Positions 7,119 to 32,787 of a stretch of 32,787 bases of DNA are shown here, in pieces. The DNA is from an uncultured Spirochaetia bacterium (GTDB lineage: Bacteria; Spirochaetota; Brachyspiria; Brachyspirales; Brachyspiraceae), in NCBI GenBank assembly GCA_947038115.1, contig CAMQVF010000014.1, forward strand, positions 1 to 32,787, in the 5' to 3' direction. Under the pieces are notes generated by a model. It did no database searches, was not told where the DNA came from, and saw nothing but the letters and a program-made list of their open reading frames with translations. Numbering within the stretch: the stretch's first letter is position 1; each line of letters begins with the position of its first letter. The position numbers and the translations under genes are program-made.

Positions 7119-9242
7119 ATGGCTACAACGACTGTAAAATCCATATTAAATGCTATAAAAATGCCTAAAAATTTAGGTAAGCATAATGACGTATTATTCG
7201 CTATAGCTTCTGTTCTAGTGATAATGATGCTTATCATTCCTTTGCCGACATTTTTACTCGACTTTCTTTTAATAGTTAATATTACATTAAGTCTTCTTAT
7301 TCTTTTACTAGTATTAAATATTAAAAATACAAAAGAGTTTAGTGTCTTCCCTTCTCTACTTTTAATAATGACTGCTTTTAGACTTGCATTAAATGTATCG
7401 ACCACAAGAGCAATTCTTACTCAAGGTACTGGTTTTAATGTACAAGTAATTATGGCATTTGCCGACTTCGTTGTCGCAGGTAATTTTGTTGTAGGTATTA
7501 TCATATTTACTATTCTTATTGTTGTTCAATTCGTAGTAATAACAAAAGGTGCTACAAGAGTCGCTGAAGTTGCTGCTCGTTTCTCATTAGACAGTATGCC
7601 TGCAAAAATGATGTCTATTGAAAGTGAATTACAAGCAGGTGCTATTACTGATAAAGAAGCTGAGAAAAAAAGACGTGAAGTTCGAAGTGAAAGTGATTTT
7701 TACGGAACTATGGACGGAGCTTCTAAATTTGTACAAGGTGACGTTATTGCGAGTATAATAATCACATTAATAAACATAGTCGGCGGACTTATTATTGGTA
7801 TGCTTATGCGTGGTGAAACACTTGAACAAGCTATAAATATATATATTCGTTTCACTGTTGGTGATGGACTTGTAGCTCAAATACCTTCTTTTTTCATGAG
7901 TTTTGCTACTGGTTTATTACTTACTCGTGGAACTAGTGAACAGAATCTTTCATCTGAATTTAAAACGCAGATTTTCGAAAAACCAAAAGTATTATATATT
8001 GCCGCTGGTTTTTGTCTATTCTTAATGATATTACCGGGTTTCCCTAAAATAACATTGCTTTTCATTGCTCTAGTTTTATGGTTTTTAGGATTTTCTAAAA
8101 ATAAACAAAATAAAGAAGAAGGTTTGTCTGAAGATGGGACACCTCTTAGTAAAGAACAAATGTCTAAACCTACAGGCCCTCTTGATGTAAGCCCACTTCT
8201 TAAAGTTGAACGTATCGAACTTTCTATAGGAACTATGCTAATACCTTTGGTTGATGAAAGTCAAGGTGGTGATTTGCTTAGCCGTGTAACAAGCATTAGA
8301 CGAGAATTAGCACTTGATATGGGTATTATTGTACCACCTATAAGAATTACAGATAATAATATCATCGAACAAGAAGAATATTCTATAAGTATTAATGGAA
8401 CTGAAGTTGCCAAGGCATTCGTCAGACCAACTATGCTTTTAGCTTTTAATCAAATGGATAATGAGCCACCGACTGAGGAGTGTGAGAAAACTAATGAGCC
8501 AGCATTTGGACTACCTGCTTTTTGGATAAATGCAGATACAAAAGAGCAGGCTGAAAATAAAGGCTTTATGATATTTGGGTCAACTGCTGTTATAGCAACT
8601 CATCTTACTCAAGTTATAAGAAATAATGCAAATGTATTACTTGGTCGTGAAGAAGTTCAAAATATATTGAATGTCTTAAAAGAAACTCACCCTTCTCTAA
8701 TCAGTGAAGTATTGAGTGCTCAGGGGACAAAAGAAAGCCCATTAGGATATATACAGAAAATACTTCAAAATTTGTTACAAGAGGGTGTTGCTATTAGAAA
8801 CTCTATAGCTATACTTGAAGCGGTGGCAGATGCTATTGGAAATGTTAGAAGTGAACAGGCGACAGAACTTGTACGAAGCAGGTTATCACAACAGATATCA
8901 CAGCGAATTGCTGATGCAGATAAAAGTATCAAAGTAATAATTTTCTCACAACAATTACAAAATGATATAGCAAGTAGCCTTATCGACTCGGGTGATCTTC
9001 AAGGAACACAAACCATAGCATTGAGTTATGATGTTATGCAACAAGTGATGAAGAGAACTAAAGAGTCAAGCAGCATTGTAAATGAGCAAGGGTATGAACC
9101 AGTATTTTTGGTTTCTTCGGCGATAAGAAGATCGATGTATAATTTCATTTCTAAAAACATCGGTAAATATATAGTTATTTCAAATACAGAAGTAGCACAG
9201 GGCTATAAGGTCGAGTCACTGGCTATAATAAACATAAATTAA
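7119..9242 (+). CDS. flhA: Flagellar export protein FlhA
   Basis: This is a 707-aa export gate protein that binds export chaperones and couples secretion to the proton motive force. About eight membrane helices occupy the first ~310 residues, followed by a charged linker and the cytosolic ring-forming domain. The FHIPEP-family signature lies at ~147-170 (RVAEVAARFSLDSMPAKMMS), but it departs from the usual ...MPGKQM.ID: Ala162 replaces Gly, Met164 replaces Gln and Glu168 occupies the position of the Asp that is functionally critical in Salmonella FlhA (D208). TGAGGA at 7105-7110 precedes the ATG. The gene is 16 nt after flhB and 19 nt before the microprotein. Confidence 0.97.
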   Translation: MATTTVKSILNAIKMPKNLGKHNDVLFAIASVLVIMMLIIPLPTFLLDFLLIVNITLSLLILLLVLNIKNTKEFSVFPSLLLIMTAFRLALNVSTTRAILTQGTGFNVQVIMAFADFVVAGNFVVGIIIFTILIVVQFVVITKGATRVAEVAARFSLDSMPAKMMSIESELQAGAITDKEAEKKRREVRSESDFYGTMDGASKFVQGDVIASIIITLINIVGGLIIGMLMRGETLEQAINIYIRFTVGDGLVAQIPSFFMSFATGLLLTRGTSEQNLSSEFKTQIFEKPKVLYIAAGFCLFLMILPGFPKITLLFIALVLWFLGFSKNKQNKEEGLSEDGTPLSKEQMSKPTGPLDVSPLLKVERIELSIGTMLIPLVDESQGGDLLSRVTSIRRELALDMGIIVPPIRITDNNIIEQEEYSISINGTEVAKAFVRPTMLLAFNQMDNEPPTEECEKTNEPAFGLPAFWINADTKEQAENKGFMIFGSTAVIATHLTQVIRNNANVLLGREEVQNILNVLKETHPSLISEVLSAQGTKESPLGYIQKILQNLLQEGVAIRNSIAILEAVADAIGNVRSEQATELVRSRLSQQISQRIADADKSIKVIIFSQQLQNDIASSLIDSGDLQGTQTIALSYDVMQQVMKRTKESSSIVNEQGYEPVFLVSSAIRRSMYNFISKNIGKYIVISNTEVAQGYKVESLAIININ

Positions 9243-9261
9243 TAAAACAAGGAGATTTGTT

Positions 9262-9435
9262 ATGCAACGTATCACAATTTTTGCTAAAAACAGAGAACAT
9301 GCTGAAAAGCTAGCTAAGGGTAAATATGGCGAAAGATATTTTATCATTAGTATTAAACCTTCTTTAAGAAAGAATTTTTTTGGAGTTGTTAAGAAAGAGT
9401 ATCGTGTTTCTATAGGTGTATTAGAACAGTACTAA
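9262..9435 (+). CDS. 57-aa stand-alone FlhF-N / Jag-N-like microprotein
   Basis: A short gene between flhA and flhF is preceded by a strong AAGGAG (9249-9254, 7 nt from the ATG). The product begins MQRITIFAKNREHAEKLAKG and ends KKEYRVSIGVLEQY. It aligns by eye along nearly its whole length with the N terminus of the next gene, FlhF (RTIEAKSQTEALATARIEYG ... GILGIGAKKKHQLRIMLLDS): same IxAK..E.A...A...YG...F.I beginning, an F/LG turn in the middle, and a basic strand before the end. It therefore looks like a free copy of the FlhF N-terminal, Jag-N-like alpha/beta module. Coupled translation with flhA and flhF suggests a role in FlhF function or stoichiometry, but this is inference; no function is known to me. 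Confidence 0.8.
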   Translation: MQRITIFAKNREHAEKLAKGKYGERYFIISIKPSLRKNFFGVVKKEYRVSIGVLEQY

Positions 9436-9468
9436 AATATTAATCTAGCTTTAGGGAGTTATTAAAAC

Positions 9469-11058
9469 ATGGTAGATATAAGAACTATAGAGGCAAAGAG
9501 TCAGACAGAAGCATTAGCCACGGCACGCATAGAATATGGTACTAATTTTACTATTTTAGGCAGTAAAGAAGTTGCCACTAAAGGTATTCTAGGCATTGGT
9601 GCTAAGAAAAAACATCAACTCCGAATTATGCTTCTCGATTCTATTTATGATAATAGAAAAAAAGAAGAAGAACGTGATGATGATAATAATAATTCTGACA
9701 CTACTAAAGAATTATCTAAACATTCGGACACCATTGACGGCAAAGAAATTGGTGAACGAGTTGTTGCATTAACTAAAATGTTGCAGCAGTCAGCAAAAGA
9801 ACGTTCTATGCAACAAAATAATCAACAAAATTTCCATGAAAATGATACTGTTAAGATTGGTTCTATCGAGATGAAAAAACCTCAAACAGATGAAAATAAA
9901 GAAATTGAAATTGATAAAAAAGTAGCTGAACTAGTTGAAGATAAAATGAAAAATATGATGAAAGATTATATGGATATTCGATCATCAAATAATGAAACTT
10001 CAAGAAGTAAAAATACTAATACTGAAAATAAACAGAGAAATAAACTTACTGACTACTTAGAAAGAAGTATTATAAAAAATAATGACTATGATCAAGAATC
10101 TTCTAAAAGCACTAGAGAAGTTAGAAAAACAGAGAATATAGAATCACTTCATTCTAAAAAAGATAGAAATAAAAGAGATAGAGTGAAAAGTGCTGACAGT
10201 AGCATGACGCCTAGAGAAGCATTAAGAAGAAAAAAATTAAGAAAGAAAAACCTTGCCAAAAAAAATAGATATGAAGGCATCGAAGAAAGCATGAAGTATT
10301 TAAGACTGCGTGAATTTCCAGAGGCTATAGTTGACGAGATGAAAGAATATCTTCTGACTAAAAGCAATGCACGTTTTTTTCAATCGCCTGAAGTTATTCA
10401 AGAAGAAGTTATCGAATACTTTTCAAATAATATTAAACTTTTAGACGGCATTGAAATTACTTCTAAAAAGAAAATAATAGTTTTAGTTGGGCCTACTGGC
10501 GTTGGAAAAACTACTACAATACCTAAAATAGCTGCTGTTCATTTGAAAAGCGGAAAGAAGGTATCATTTGTAACTATTGATAATTATAGAATTGCTGCTG
10601 TTGATCAGTTAAATAAATATGCTGATATAATGAAAGTACCTTTTGCATCGGCTAGCACTCCAGAAGCTTTGAGAGCTGAAATTCGAAAAATGGAGCAAAG
10701 TTCGATACTATTTGTAGATACAATGGGGCGTTCACCTAAGGGAGCTGAGGATATTATCGCATTATCTAAATATTTTTCCACTGTTGGGAGGTTTGATATC
10801 GATATACAGCTTGTAATGAGTTCAACAGTAAAGTATAATGATGCCTTAAGCATACTAGATGCTTTTAAACTTACAAACTATAAAGGTGTTATTCTCACTA
10901 AATTAGATGAAACTGATTATCTAGCATCTTCTGTTTCAGCACTATATAAAAGAGAAGTACCTATAACTTATGCAACTTTTGGACAGCGAGTGCCACAAGA
11001 CATCGCTACTGGTGTTAATGCGAAAGAAAATATACTAAACGGACTTTATGGAAAATAG
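9469..11058 (+). CDS. flhF: Flagellar positioning GTPase FlhF
   Basis: FlhF is an SRP-family GTPase that determines where and whether flagella are built. The 529-aa product has three parts: an N-terminal Jag-N-like domain (residues ~1-58, with KGILGIGAKKK), a long charged, low-complexity linker (~60-270), and the NG GTPase domain. G1 is GPTGVGKTT (341-349), followed by VSFVTIDNYRIAAVDQL, the Walker-B/G3 region ILFVDTMGRSPKG, and the G4-like VILTKLDETDYL, then GQRVPQDI near the end, all typical of FlhF. AGGGAG at 9453-9458 precedes the ATG. flhG follows after 5 nt, so the partner ATPase is made from the same message. Confidence 0.96.
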   Translation: MVDIRTIEAKSQTEALATARIEYGTNFTILGSKEVATKGILGIGAKKKHQLRIMLLDSIYDNRKKEEERDDDNNNSDTTKELSKHSDTIDGKEIGERVVALTKMLQQSAKERSMQQNNQQNFHENDTVKIGSIEMKKPQTDENKEIEIDKKVAELVEDKMKNMMKDYMDIRSSNNETSRSKNTNTENKQRNKLTDYLERSIIKNNDYDQESSKSTREVRKTENIESLHSKKDRNKRDRVKSADSSMTPREALRRKKLRKKNLAKKNRYEGIEESMKYLRLREFPEAIVDEMKEYLLTKSNARFFQSPEVIQEEVIEYFSNNIKLLDGIEITSKKKIIVLVGPTGVGKTTTIPKIAAVHLKSGKKVSFVTIDNYRIAAVDQLNKYADIMKVPFASASTPEALRAEIRKMEQSSILFVDTMGRSPKGAEDIIALSKYFSTVGRFDIDIQLVMSSTVKYNDALSILDAFKLTNYKGVILTKLDETDYLASSVSALYKREVPITYATFGQRVPQDIATGVNAKENILNGLYGK

Positions 11059-11063
11059 AAACT

Positions 11064-11927
11064 ATGAAAGATCAAGCAGACGAACTTAGAAAAATGATGC
11101 GTAAAAAAAATATGCGCAAACAACGTGTAATTGCTGTAGCAAGTGGAAAAGGCGGTGTGGGTAAAACCAATTTATCTATAAATCTAGCCATAGCATTAAG
11201 CAGATTAAATCAAAATGTTTTAGTCTTAGATGCTGACTTAGGACTTGCTAATGTAAATATTATCCTCGGAAGCACACCCGAGTTTAATTTACTACATGTT
11301 GTTCGTGGAGTCAAAACTCTTCCACAAATTATTATGAATACACCTTTTGGTATAAAATATATTGCGGGAGCTTCTGGATTTTCAGAACTTGCTAATATGT
11401 CTGAGCAAGGTTTAACTCGATTAATTACTGGACTTGAATATTTAAATAATACTGATATCATAATAGTAGACACTAGTGCTGGTATATCTGATAGTGTTTT
11501 ATATTTTATATTAGCAGCCGATGAAAGCTTAATAATTACAACGCCAGAGCCTACAGCAATGCTCGACGCTTATGGAATGATAAAAACGATAACAAGTGAA
11601 AAAAAGAATGCAGACATTAAACTTATAGTAAACCGAGTAAGCAAAAAATCGGATGTAAATAAAGTTGGAAATAGAATAGTATCGATAAGCAAGGAATATC
11701 TTGATATTGATGTAGATTATATTGGGCATGTTTTTGATGATAATACAGTTCCCTACTCTGTCTTAAGACAAGTTCCATTTTATGCCTATGATAACAAATG
11801 TGGTGCGAGTGTATGTTTAGACAATATTGCTCGTAAGATAATAGACCCTAAAAATGAAAAAGAAAAAAAACCTGAGGGACTTGGTGGCTTTTTTGGAAAT
11901 CTAATGAATATGTCTAAAAAAATATAA
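11064..11927 (+). CDS. flhG: MinD-type ATPase FlhG (YlxH), FlhF regulator
   Basis: FlhG is a 287-aa ParA/MinD-family ATPase that controls flagellar number by stimulating the FlhF GTPase. The N terminus carries MKDQADELRKMM, which matches the known DQAxxLR activator motif (residues 3-9). The deviant Walker A is SGKGGVGKT (27-35), followed by VLVLDADLGLANVNIILG and the Walker B IIIVDTSAGISDSV. A C-terminal membrane-targeting segment (~270-287, GGFFGNLMNMSKKI) is plausibly amphipathic, as in MinD. It starts 5 nt after flhF, indicating translational coupling. ylxH is an alternative gene name. Confidence 0.96.
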   Translation: MKDQADELRKMMRKKNMRKQRVIAVASGKGGVGKTNLSINLAIALSRLNQNVLVLDADLGLANVNIILGSTPEFNLLHVVRGVKTLPQIIMNTPFGIKYIAGASGFSELANMSEQGLTRLITGLEYLNNTDIIIVDTSAGISDSVLYFILAADESLIITTPEPTAMLDAYGMIKTITSEKKNADIKLIVNRVSKKSDVNKVGNRIVSISKEYLDIDVDYIGHVFDDNTVPYSVLRQVPFYAYDNKCGASVCLDNIARKIIDPKNEKEKKPEGLGGFFGNLMNMSKKI

Positions 11928-11949
11928 TATATATTATGGAGGTTTGAAA

Positions 11950-12645
11950 GTGAATAGTAGTGAATTATTAAATAAACTTAGAGAAAAATTGTTATCGGCA
12001 AATGGTAAAATAATGATGTTAGTATTTGGATTTTCGTCTTCTATCACATTTTTTATCACAATGTCTAATAATAATACATTGTCATTTTCTTTTTTTAGAG
12101 CACTATCTTCAGGCTTAATTGCTTCTTTTATCCTATATATAATATATTTAGTTTTATCTCTAGTCTTAGGTAAAGATATGTTGAACTTTGACAAGAATAC
12201 CACAAATAAAAATTCCAATGAAAGTGGTAATCCTTATATGGATAATTTAGATCCTGAAATTGATGTTGACGCTGAAAATATTTATAATCAAATGCAAGAG
12301 AGCACTAAAATACGAAAAAATGACCACGATTTGGATAATGATGATATAAGTGGTGATATAGGTGATCTTTTATCTGATTCTAGTCTAAAAGAAGATGACT
12401 CTAGTGTTGATATAAATTCTGATTTGAGTTATCATAATGAGAGTAATAATGAGGAAGCAAAAGAGGCTGGCATAGGTTCGATTATCGCTAATAAAGCAGA
12501 TAACAACTCGAAAGCTATTACCGATGATTTTTTTATAGATTTCTCGGCACCTGTTGATGCTGACCCTATTAAGATGATAGCTAAATCAGACCCTGAAACT
12601 GCTGCTAAGGCAATTAGAACTATTCGGTCTAAGGATGATAAATAG
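11950..12645 (+). CDS. Unrecognised acidic membrane protein of the flagellar operon
   Basis: The start is GTG 11950, with GGAGG at 11938-11942 seven nt upstream (a TTG at 11944 is too close to that site). The 231-aa product has a short N-terminal segment, two membrane helices (about residues 20-40 and 50-75), then a long, strongly acidic Asp/Asn/Ser-rich tail of about 130 residues and a conserved-looking basic end, DPETAAKAIRTIRSKDDK. I do not recognise a family. Its place between flhG and the flagellar sigma factor, with in-operon spacing, argues for a flagellar role. The C-terminal ~20 residues, after an unstructured linker, look like a short binding motif; the partner is unknown. Confidence 0.8.
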   Translation: MNSSELLNKLREKLLSANGKIMMLVFGFSSSITFFITMSNNNTLSFSFFRALSSGLIASFILYIIYLVLSLVLGKDMLNFDKNTTNKNSNESGNPYMDNLDPEIDVDAENIYNQMQESTKIRKNDHDLDNDDISGDIGDLLSDSSLKEDDSSVDINSDLSYHNESNNEEAKEAGIGSIIANKADNNSKAITDDFFIDFSAPVDADPIKMIAKSDPETAAKAIRTIRSKDDK

Positions 12646-12704: not shown

Positions 12705-13526
12705 ATGACACCTAAAAGAAGACCGCCAAGACAAAAAAGACCTCTAATTACAGAGGAAAATGAAAAAGAATATTGGGTTGAGTATAAAAAGACAAATTCG
12801 CCTTTAATTCGTGAGGCTTTGGTCGTTAAATATTCTCCTTTGGTAAAATATGTGGCGAACAAAATGCATGTAAAAATAGGCACTCATAAAAGCATCAATT
12901 TTGATGACCTAGTAAGCTCTGGTGGATTCGGTCTTTTAGATGCTATTGAAAAATATAATCCTAATTTGAATACAAAATTTAACACTTATGCAATGACAAG
13001 AATTAGTGGATCTATTTTGGATGAACTTAGAAAGCAAGATTCACTTCCTCGTTCTGTTAGGCAAGAAGCTAAAGAAATTGAGAGAACAAGAGAAATTTTA
13101 GAATCTCATTATACTAGAAATGTCACTTCACAAGAAATATGTGAAAAACTAGGCATTCCTATGAGTAAATATAATGACATAATGAAGAAAGTTACAGAAT
13201 CTTCACCCACTTCATTAAACGACATCAGATATGTAGACACTGAAGCTACAGGGATATCGATAGCAGATACTCTGAAGGCAAGCGAAAAAACAAGCCCGGG
13301 ATATATTGTCGAAAGAGAACATGTTAAAAAGAAAATTGTCGAGGCTATAAAAAATCTGCCAGAGAAAGAGCAACAAGTTTTAATATTATATTATTATGAT
13401 GACCTTACTCTAAAAGAAATTGGTGCTATTTTTGAGGCGACAGAAAGCCGAATATCGCAAATACATACTAAAGCACTTCAGGCATTAAGATACAGCCTAT
13501 CAGAGATAAAAAAGCAATTATTATAA
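12705..13526 (+). CDS. fliA: Flagellar RNA polymerase sigma factor FliA/WhiG (sigma-28)
   Basis: This is a 273-aa sigma factor of the FliA/WhiG/SigD group, which directs late flagellar and motility gene transcription. Region 2 runs from about residue 30 (LVVKYSPLVKYVANKM...FDDLVSSGGFGLLDAIEKYNP...FNTYAMTRISGSILDELRKQD), region 3 follows (SLPRSVRQEAKEIERT), and region 4 is LPEKEQQVLILYYYDDLTLKEIGAIFEATESRISQIHTKAL near the C terminus, with the helix-turn-helix. The group-specific start of region 3 (D.LPR..R) is intact. No good ribosome site precedes the ATG. The gene lies 59 nt after the acidic membrane protein and 28 nt before the FapA gene, as part of the flagellar operon. whiG is the alternative name used in some spirochetes. 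Confidence 0.95.
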   Translation: MTPKRRPPRQKRPLITEENEKEYWVEYKKTNSPLIREALVVKYSPLVKYVANKMHVKIGTHKSINFDDLVSSGGFGLLDAIEKYNPNLNTKFNTYAMTRISGSILDELRKQDSLPRSVRQEAKEIERTREILESHYTRNVTSQEICEKLGIPMSKYNDIMKKVTESSPTSLNDIRYVDTEATGISIADTLKASEKTSPGYIVEREHVKKKIVEAIKNLPEKEQQVLILYYYDDLTLKEIGAIFEATESRISQIHTKALQALRYSLSEIKKQLL

Positions 13527-13554
13527 ATATTTTTGATAATTATAAGGAGTGGCT

Positions 13555-15540
13555 ATGAATGATCTTAGAAAAAAAATATTAAAAAGTGATTTTTATAAGG
13601 ATGCTTATGCAAATCAAAGTTTAGATTCTACAGATTTATATGTACCATCAATACAAGCAGGGCTCGAAGAGGCTTCTGCTATTTTTCAATGCCCTCTATA
13701 TGAAGTTAGCTATGAAGTGCTTGAAAGTGCCAGTAGTGGTGTTTTTGGCATGGGTAATAAACTTCATTATGTTAGATATACAAGAATTACATATGCAAAA
13801 AAAATGCTCGTAAAAGCTGACAGAATATATGACTATATCGATTCGACAACTTCATCGAGTTTGAACATTCATGATGAAACATTAAGCAAGTCTACTGAAA
13901 TTAGCGTCCGTGTTAAAAGAGATGGAATATTTATAAAAGTATCGCCTCCTCAAGGAGACGGAAAAAAAATAACAAATATAGCGATTATAGAAAAAGAACT
14001 TAATGATGTTCAAGCGCTAGACTATGATATCAATATAATAAAACAAGCATTGAGTGAACAAACTAGTGAGTATATTAAAGTTTCTGATTGGAATGAGGGT
14101 AATTCATTAAATAATGGTTCAGTAAGAGTAAATGTTAGTAACGACTATATGAGAGTTTTTATGAACATTACGCCACCTACCATAAGTGGACGTGAAATGG
14201 ACTTACAAGATGTTAAAGAATTACTTAATATTGAAGAAGTTATATTTGGAATAAAAGAAGATGTAATTGAAGAGGCATTAGAAAATCGAATTTATAAATC
14301 TCCAATTATTATTGCGGAAGGCACTGCCCCTACTAATGGTAAAAATGCGAAAATTGAATATTTGATCAATATGGACAAGGAATCTATGGCAAGATATATT
14401 GACGATGTTCAAAGTATTGACTATAAAAATATGAGTATAGTAGAAAACATAGCGAAAGATCAAACTATAGCTAAAAAAATAGATGTTCAATATGGTGAGG
14501 AAGGATACACGGTACTGGGCAAAACTATCGAAGTTGTTGACGGCAAAGAAATAGAGATAGCCGATTATTTGGGTAACAATGTAGTATTTGATGAAGCAAC
14601 ATCTTCTATATTATCGACAGCCGATGGACAAGTCGTTATTACTGGAAAAAAAATTAATGTTGAACCACTACTTGAAATCGCTAGTGATGTCGGGCCTGAA
14701 ACTGGAAATATTGACTTCTTAGGTAGTGTTCTTATACGTGGTAGTGTTCTTGATAACTACTCTGTTCGAGCCAATGGAAATATTGAAGTTTTAGGCTCTG
14801 TGGAAAAATGTAATATTGAAGCCAAGGGTGATATTATTGTAAAACTTGGTATACAAGGACATGGAGAAGGTAAAATTAAATCAGAAGGCGATGTTATTGC
14901 CAAGTTTATACAATTTGCTAATATCCATGCTGGCGGAAATGTTATTGTAAGTGAGGCTATATTAAACTCTAATGTCGATGCCGATGACAGTATTTTACTT
15001 ACGGGTAAGAAAGCTATGGCTAGTGGTGGACATTTAAGAGCTTATAAAGAAGTTAATGCTAAAACTTTGGGCTCACCTTCATCGGTAAAAACTATTATTG
15101 AAACTGGCGTTTTACCAGCTACTCGAAGAAAAATTGAAAAACTAAGATTAGAAAAAACAGAAATTGATGAAATGCTTGAAGAGCTTAATAAAAATATAAA
15201 ATCTTTAGAAAAACTTGAAAAATATGACAAGTTAGATGAAGATCAAAAAGTTGTACTTAAAGAGTCAAGAGAAACAAATAGTGACTCTATGATTAGAATA
15301 AAAGAAATATCTGAAGAAAAAAGCAAACTAATACTTGAGATTCAAAGCACTGATGTAAATTCAAAAGTATCTGCTGGCAAAGAAGCACTACCCGGTGTAA
15401 CAATATCGATTAGAAATGCTGATATTTCACTAAGAGACTCTTATAAATCTACAACATTCTATGAAGAGGGAGGAATGATACAATTAGGCAATTATCAGGA
15501 ATCGAAAACTAAAGTAGACGTGGATTCTAAAAGTGAATAA
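13555..15540 (+). CDS. FapA/DUF342 polymer-like beta-helix protein with Jag-N-like N-terminal module
   Basis: The start is ATG 13555, with AAGGAG (13544-13549) 5 nt upstream; GTG 13549 overlaps the ribosome site. The 661-aa product belongs to the FapA (DUF342) family of unknown molecular function. Residues about 30-80 (SIQAGLEEASAIFQCPLYEV ... ESASSGVFGMGNK) read like a Jag-N domain, including the G-[VL]-[FL]-G-[MI]-G turn. Residues about 395-500 form an imperfect right-handed beta-helix of repeated G-x-[IV]-x-V turns (GNIEVLGSVEKCNIEAKGDI), the FapA core. A coiled coil (~520-600) precedes the tail. It is common downstream of flagellar sigma factors in several phyla. A regulatory or scaffolding role is inferred from context only. 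Confidence 0.9.
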   Translation: MNDLRKKILKSDFYKDAYANQSLDSTDLYVPSIQAGLEEASAIFQCPLYEVSYEVLESASSGVFGMGNKLHYVRYTRITYAKKMLVKADRIYDYIDSTTSSSLNIHDETLSKSTEISVRVKRDGIFIKVSPPQGDGKKITNIAIIEKELNDVQALDYDINIIKQALSEQTSEYIKVSDWNEGNSLNNGSVRVNVSNDYMRVFMNITPPTISGREMDLQDVKELLNIEEVIFGIKEDVIEEALENRIYKSPIIIAEGTAPTNGKNAKIEYLINMDKESMARYIDDVQSIDYKNMSIVENIAKDQTIAKKIDVQYGEEGYTVLGKTIEVVDGKEIEIADYLGNNVVFDEATSSILSTADGQVVITGKKINVEPLLEIASDVGPETGNIDFLGSVLIRGSVLDNYSVRANGNIEVLGSVEKCNIEAKGDIIVKLGIQGHGEGKIKSEGDVIAKFIQFANIHAGGNVIVSEAILNSNVDADDSILLTGKKAMASGGHLRAYKEVNAKTLGSPSSVKTIIETGVLPATRRKIEKLRLEKTEIDEMLEELNKNIKSLEKLEKYDKLDEDQKVVLKESRETNSDSMIRIKEISEEKSKLILEIQSTDVNSKVSAGKEALPGVTISIRNADISLRDSYKSTTFYEEGGMIQLGNYQESKTKVDVDSKSE

Positions 15541-32737: not shown

Positions 32738-32787
32738 AGATCGGAAGAGCGTCGTGTAGGGAAAGAGTGTCTTCGCCTGTGTAGATC
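32738..32787. other. Illumina TruSeq adapter read-through (not genomic)
   Basis: The last 50 bases begin with AGATCGGAAGAGCGTCGTGT and continue as the standard Illumina Universal adapter (read-2 side). Bases 32771-32778 (CTTCGCCT) fill the 8-nt i5 index slot; its reverse complement, AGGCGAAG, is an index I recall from the dual-index kits (505). GTGTAGATC follows, as expected. Nothing after 32737 should be annotated. Confidence 0.98.

Follow-up and report, generated by a model that had tools for sequence, protein, structure and literature searches.

FlhF and FlhG determine the place and the number of flagella in many bacteria, and in spirochetes several flagella are built at both ends of the cell. 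In Shewanella, binding to FliG requires FlhF residues 1-60, which also suffice for it, and FliG bound to FlhF still binds FliF, but not FliM/N (PMC11236974). FlhF deprived of its first 44 residues reaches the pole, and the flagellum is uncoupled from it (PMC11236974). In Pseudomonas aeruginosa, polarity depends on the G domain of FlhF, and the B domain supports assembly (PMC12713375).

The short gene described here, called X, resembles the FliG-interacting domain of FlhF (FID; the N-terminal part of the B domain, 44-60 aa, solved in 9EN1 for Shewanella putrefaciens) in sequence, length and beta-alpha-beta-beta order of its elements, and is likewise encoded at flhF. X is however a separate protein, devoid of linker, N domain and GTPase domain, and is diverged from FlhF-FID (20-31% identity). 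FliG binding is known for Shewanella FlhF, and we infer it for X. A similar small fold is found in Jag_N/KHN domains (KhpB, FapA N-terminus), to which X is distantly linked via FlhF-FID; X has no significant match to the KhpB Jag_N profile, and in the fold search 3GKU came only 38th. FlgV (BB0268 family), a flagellar regulator, is like X a small protein of the spirochete flhF-flhG neighbourhood, but it is a two-transmembrane protein encoded 3' of flhG, and X is unrelated to it in sequence and position. No description of a stand-alone FID was found in the literature searched.

Organization of the locus

The window, that is, the whole stretch of DNA analysed, spans 32,787 nucleotides of a contig from an uncultured member of the Brachyspiraceae. 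X (9262-9435, forward strand, as all the flagellar genes mentioned below) is a 57-codon ORF starting with ATG, located 19 nt from flhA (7119-9242), which encodes the export gate protein (PF00771, E 1.5e-227), and 33 nt from flhF (9469-11058). Its Shine-Dalgarno sequence AGGAG (9250-9254, within AAGGAG), read in the sequence 7 nt 5' of the ATG, is distinct from the ribosome site of flhF, AGGGAG (9453-9458, also read in the sequence). An earlier note on this DNA, made from the letters alone, had singled out a 57-aa ORF with a strong ribosome site between flhA and flhF; coordinates, gene order and ribosome site are all borne out. FlhF (529 aa) is an SRP-type GTPase (PF00448, E 1e-34; NF009366, E 6.7e-49), which also matches TIGR03499 at E 3.6e-46, under the curated equivalog cut-offs. 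Its FID (residues 1-57, encoded by 9469-9639) is, judging from profile comparison and tree, the paralogous source of X.

The next gene, flhG (11064-11927), encodes a MinD-like ATPase with matches to ParA, CbiA and AAA_31. The FlhF-activating motif DQAxxLR described in PMC11236974 can be read in the FlhG N-terminus, MKDQADELR. Located 3' of flhG is an ORF with a TTG start (11944-12645), encoding 233 aa with a hydrophobic N-terminal half and an acidic tail. The protein has no Pfam match; the gene occupies the position of FlgV in Borrelia, and may be a FlgV relative. It is followed by a FliA/WhiG-type sigma-factor-like gene (12705-13526), whose name is based on the sequence rather than on a family scan, and by fapA (13549-15540). 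At the start of the contig (1-531, reverse strand) a tandem repeat of about 45 bp lies in a coiled-coil-like ORF, where it encodes repeated NNSDNKSNNEVC(I/V)DK units. At the opposite end, a complete 33-nt Illumina adapter is found in reverse complement (32738-32770), and the ORF running to the contig end opens with the adapter-derived residues LSLHDALPI.

Scans around X in the window detected neither a terminator-like site nor an Rfam match. As gaps are short and terminator-like sites are missing, co-transcription of X with its neighbours is likely, and on this reading of the sequence X apparently belongs to the flhF operon.

Relationship to the FlhF N-terminal domain

The earlier note had aligned X by eye with the N-terminal domain of FlhF. 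A pairwise BLASTP of the two window proteins gave no match, so the likeness is too weak for pairwise methods, but it is evident when profiles are compared. In hhalign comparisons, X matched the FlhF N-termini of Brachyspirales (probability 96.6%, E 5.9e-10) and those of other spirochete families (98.4%, E 5.8e-15, 56/57 columns) with, in the latter case, a score of 68.8; the maximum score in 100 column-shuffled controls per profile was 18.6. The NCBIfam FlhF model TIGR03499, built outside this analysis, matches 13 out of 14 X proteins with E values down to 8.6e-8, the only one under threshold being the copy of the window, and no other NCBIfam family is matched by the 14 proteins. The window X protein by itself yielded only sub-threshold chance matches in Pfam and NCBIfam, and matches to PHROGs are at chance level. 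Against PDB sequences, the X profile returned nothing relevant, and the FlhF-N profile reached 9EN1 only at E 0.44.

When 296 Spirochaetota genomes were searched with a profile made of X only, FlhF N-termini of several families were among the best non-X matches, to E 1.6e-9, and in the genome hosting the window the second-best match is the FlhF FID. Of 20 non-X places read, 14 are FlhF N-termini, identified as such from the length of the frame, a location at the start of the ORF and, on contigs that permit it, the P-loop. The other six, matches from other families in short frames or at internal positions (G261, G158 second match, G109, G096, G056, G129), proved on inspection to be something other than stand-alone FIDs. 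X is not a complete FlhF either: the NG GTPase domain is missing, the frame stops after 57 aa, and flhF is a separate downstream gene.

The profile comparison proposed by the earlier note involved also Jag-N, and on that side the outcome is negative. The score of X against KhpB Jag_N (16.5) falls within the range of the shuffled controls, and Jag_N PF14804 has no match in the window X, which rules out X as a Jag_N domain; against the FapA N-terminus the score (24.8) is just over the control range, and weak. FlhF-N matches FapA at 93.8% and KhpB at 82% probability, denoting a distant relation of FlhF-FID to those N domains. On profile evidence, X is firmly assigned as a homologue of FlhF residues 1-60, within the FID family.

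The AlphaFold2 model of the X family (pLDDT 86.4) features strands at residues 2-8, 26-37 and 43-53, and a helix at 11-22. The top PDB match of the model in Foldseek is 9EN1_G (probability 1.00, TM 0.68/0.79), with an E of 0.18, non-significant by itself, as the domain is small. X and the FlhF FID have also been modelled as a linked chain, in which the two domains are joined through the intergenic stretch and stops are read as Gly, and the order of elements in the FlhF FID is the same as in X. X is thus predicted to fold, most likely, as a small beta-alpha-beta-beta domain, like that of 9EN1.

Conservation and selection

X was found in 29/29 Brachyspiraceae genomes searched, one of which carries it with frameshifts that look like assembly errors, as well as in two sister-family genomes, hence in all the 31 Brachyspirales genomes. 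Of the two results that the earlier note had named as refuting its reading, neither an absence of the ORF from relatives nor an absence of profile similarity to FlhF-N/Jag-N was obtained. A first protein search identified it in all of 25 Brachyspiraceae genomes and, weakly, in the two genomes from the other family of Brachyspirales. Four Brachyspiraceae genomes were gained by a profile search, and in these the X and FlhF-N matches are near each other on one contig. The order flhA-X-flhF is found in 27/27 genomes whose loci were read, out of 31, both sister-family genomes included. Hosts of X include Brachyspira hampsonii, B. pilosicoli, B. innocens, B. alvinipulli and B. catarrhinii. Almost all relatives also have a GGAG-type site ahead of X.

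X is exactly 57 aa long across Brachyspiraceae; the sister-family proteins have 63 aa. Among 22 family members, X has a mean pN of 0.070 and a mean pS of 0.613 (pN/pS 0.114); the N-terminal 54 codons of FlhF are under weaker constraint in 22 family members (pN/pS 0.227). Pairwise differences among three close species amount to 24 synonymous and no non-synonymous changes. Strong purifying selection acts on X, which is more constrained than the FID of FlhF itself. Conserved residues fit the pattern KNRE, KYGE-YFII, RKNIFG, FEVSI, and the calculated pI is 10.1.

The ORF at 9262-9435 is confirmed as a real gene. That it could be a chance ORF, a leader peptide or a decaying relic is extremely improbable: X has remained free of indels across the family despite X-flhF gaps ranging from 17 to 323 nt among the loci read, the known domain fold speaks against such a reading, and the low pN/pS contradicts it. 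Partial extra copies do decay in some species (see below), and X is frame-shifted in Brachyspira sp. G79 (G010, locus L025). There, however, A's are missing from two A6 runs, a typical assembly error; this looks like the simplest explanation, and the frameshift could also be a real loss.

Distribution and origin

A joint FID profile identified, in the same 296 Spirochaetota genomes, two matches per Brachyspirales genome, three in G003, G007, G018 and G019. Outside Brachyspirales exactly one match was found in each of 233 genomes, and none in 32; among the matches listed, the non-Brachyspirales ones lie in long frames, as FlhF. These other genomes presumably include Treponema, Borrelia and Leptospira types. 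Within this sample X is confined to one order, Brachyspirales, and is not a trait of spirochetes in general, for which the earlier note had thought it perhaps important.

In a tree of limited resolution (59 columns) X proteins form one clade (94/79). X, together with the extra copy X2, is placed beside the FlhF-FID of Brachyspirales (93/83), and the extra copies called Y fall inside the latter. By profile, the FlhF N-termini closest to X are those of the f31 genomes (L039-L042, L052, L056), in which flhF lies away from flhA, near a divergent aldolase-like gene; the tree instead puts X beside Brachyspirales FlhF. The data fit a single event in the ancestor of Brachyspirales, by which the 5' end of flhF was duplicated, followed by local copies in some species. 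X2, found in G003 only, is a second tandem FID mini-ORF of 56 aa located between X and flhF (L023, 1693-1863). Y is an ORF of 83-84 aa, similarly located, which starts with a partial FlhF-FID duplicate and is found in three related Brachyspira (G019, L008 1716-1970; G018, L011; G007, L013). In these three genomes pN/pS is about 0.45 for Y and 0 for X, indicating that Y evolves loosely.

Putative function

The earlier note had considered the N-terminal domain of FlhF as needed for polar targeting, and a free copy of it as a potential competitor. The first 60 aa or so correspond to the FID, and, as Shewanella FlhF lacking the FID is still polar (PMC11236974), this premise has to be revised: the role of the FID is to bind FliG rather than to target the pole, so competition is expected for FliG, and not for the polar target. 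From the Shewanella and P. aeruginosa data, a free FID would be expected to bind FliG but leave it untethered from the pole. In each Brachyspirales genome where FliG_N matches were detected, they belong to a single fliG gene; G010 and G012 each have a further match, below the cut-off, and none was found in the fragmented G023. X and FlhF would consequently have one FliG in common. The idea of a second FliG paralogue, served by X, was considered, and rejected on the same count.

By analogy with FlhF, the following sequence of events may be envisaged. An ancestor would have acquired a free-standing FID when the 5' end of flhF was duplicated, and selection would have retained it. X would bind the middle/C-terminal region of FliG as the FID of FlhF does and, having no GTPase part, would leave FliG untied from the pole. 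Produced from the flhF operon, X would buffer FliG or compete for it and, by analogy with the FID, might keep FliG off FliM/FliN, so tuning the frequency of the flagellar starts nucleated by FlhF. We give an even chance to X being a trans-acting FliG ligand which competes with FlhF or buffers it; FliG binding, competition and the effect on flagellar number are all inferred. Less specifically, X probably tunes flagellar placement or number.

The divergence of X from FlhF-FID means that the binding surface may have changed, and X might have kept the fold and switched to another partner, such as FliF, FlhA, FlhG or a pole protein specific to Brachyspirales. The long divergence, a conserved pattern of its own and a constraint above that of the FID all accord with such a switch, but permanent linkage to flhF and the common fold make FliG the simplest partner, and we regard the switch as rather unlikely. 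Slightly less credit goes to a pairing of X with FlhF itself, through FID or linker, resulting in a two-FID unit or in the masking of the FlhF FID, instead of binding to FliG alone. Small paralogous domains often pair, and X adjoins flhF wherever gene order was read; yet the linked-chain AlphaFold2 model, crude and based on a shallow alignment, has both folds in no defined arrangement (pTM 0.36), and gives no support to the pairing with the FlhF domain that the earlier note had envisaged.

A basic pI and the distant relation of FlhF-FID to FapA/KhpB N domains could also suggest a nucleic-acid-associated protein of Jag/KHN type, regulating the mRNA of the operon. This is quite improbable, given that X is at control level against KhpB Jag_N and weak against FapA-N, and that neither Rfam matches nor terminators were found near X.

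The preferred reading, binding to FliG, can be tentatively extended, with somewhat less than even confidence, to the proposal that a dedicated trans-acting FID microprotein, derived from a duplicated interaction domain, is in competition with the parental FlhF over FliG and governs the initiation of flagella in Brachyspirales, as a third component of the FlhF-FlhG switch. If so, Brachyspirales would have a part of the switch controlling number and position of flagella without counterpart in other spirochetes. A free domain that plausibly grips FliG, and is more constrained than the copy from which it derives, suggests that a third player is hidden in one order.
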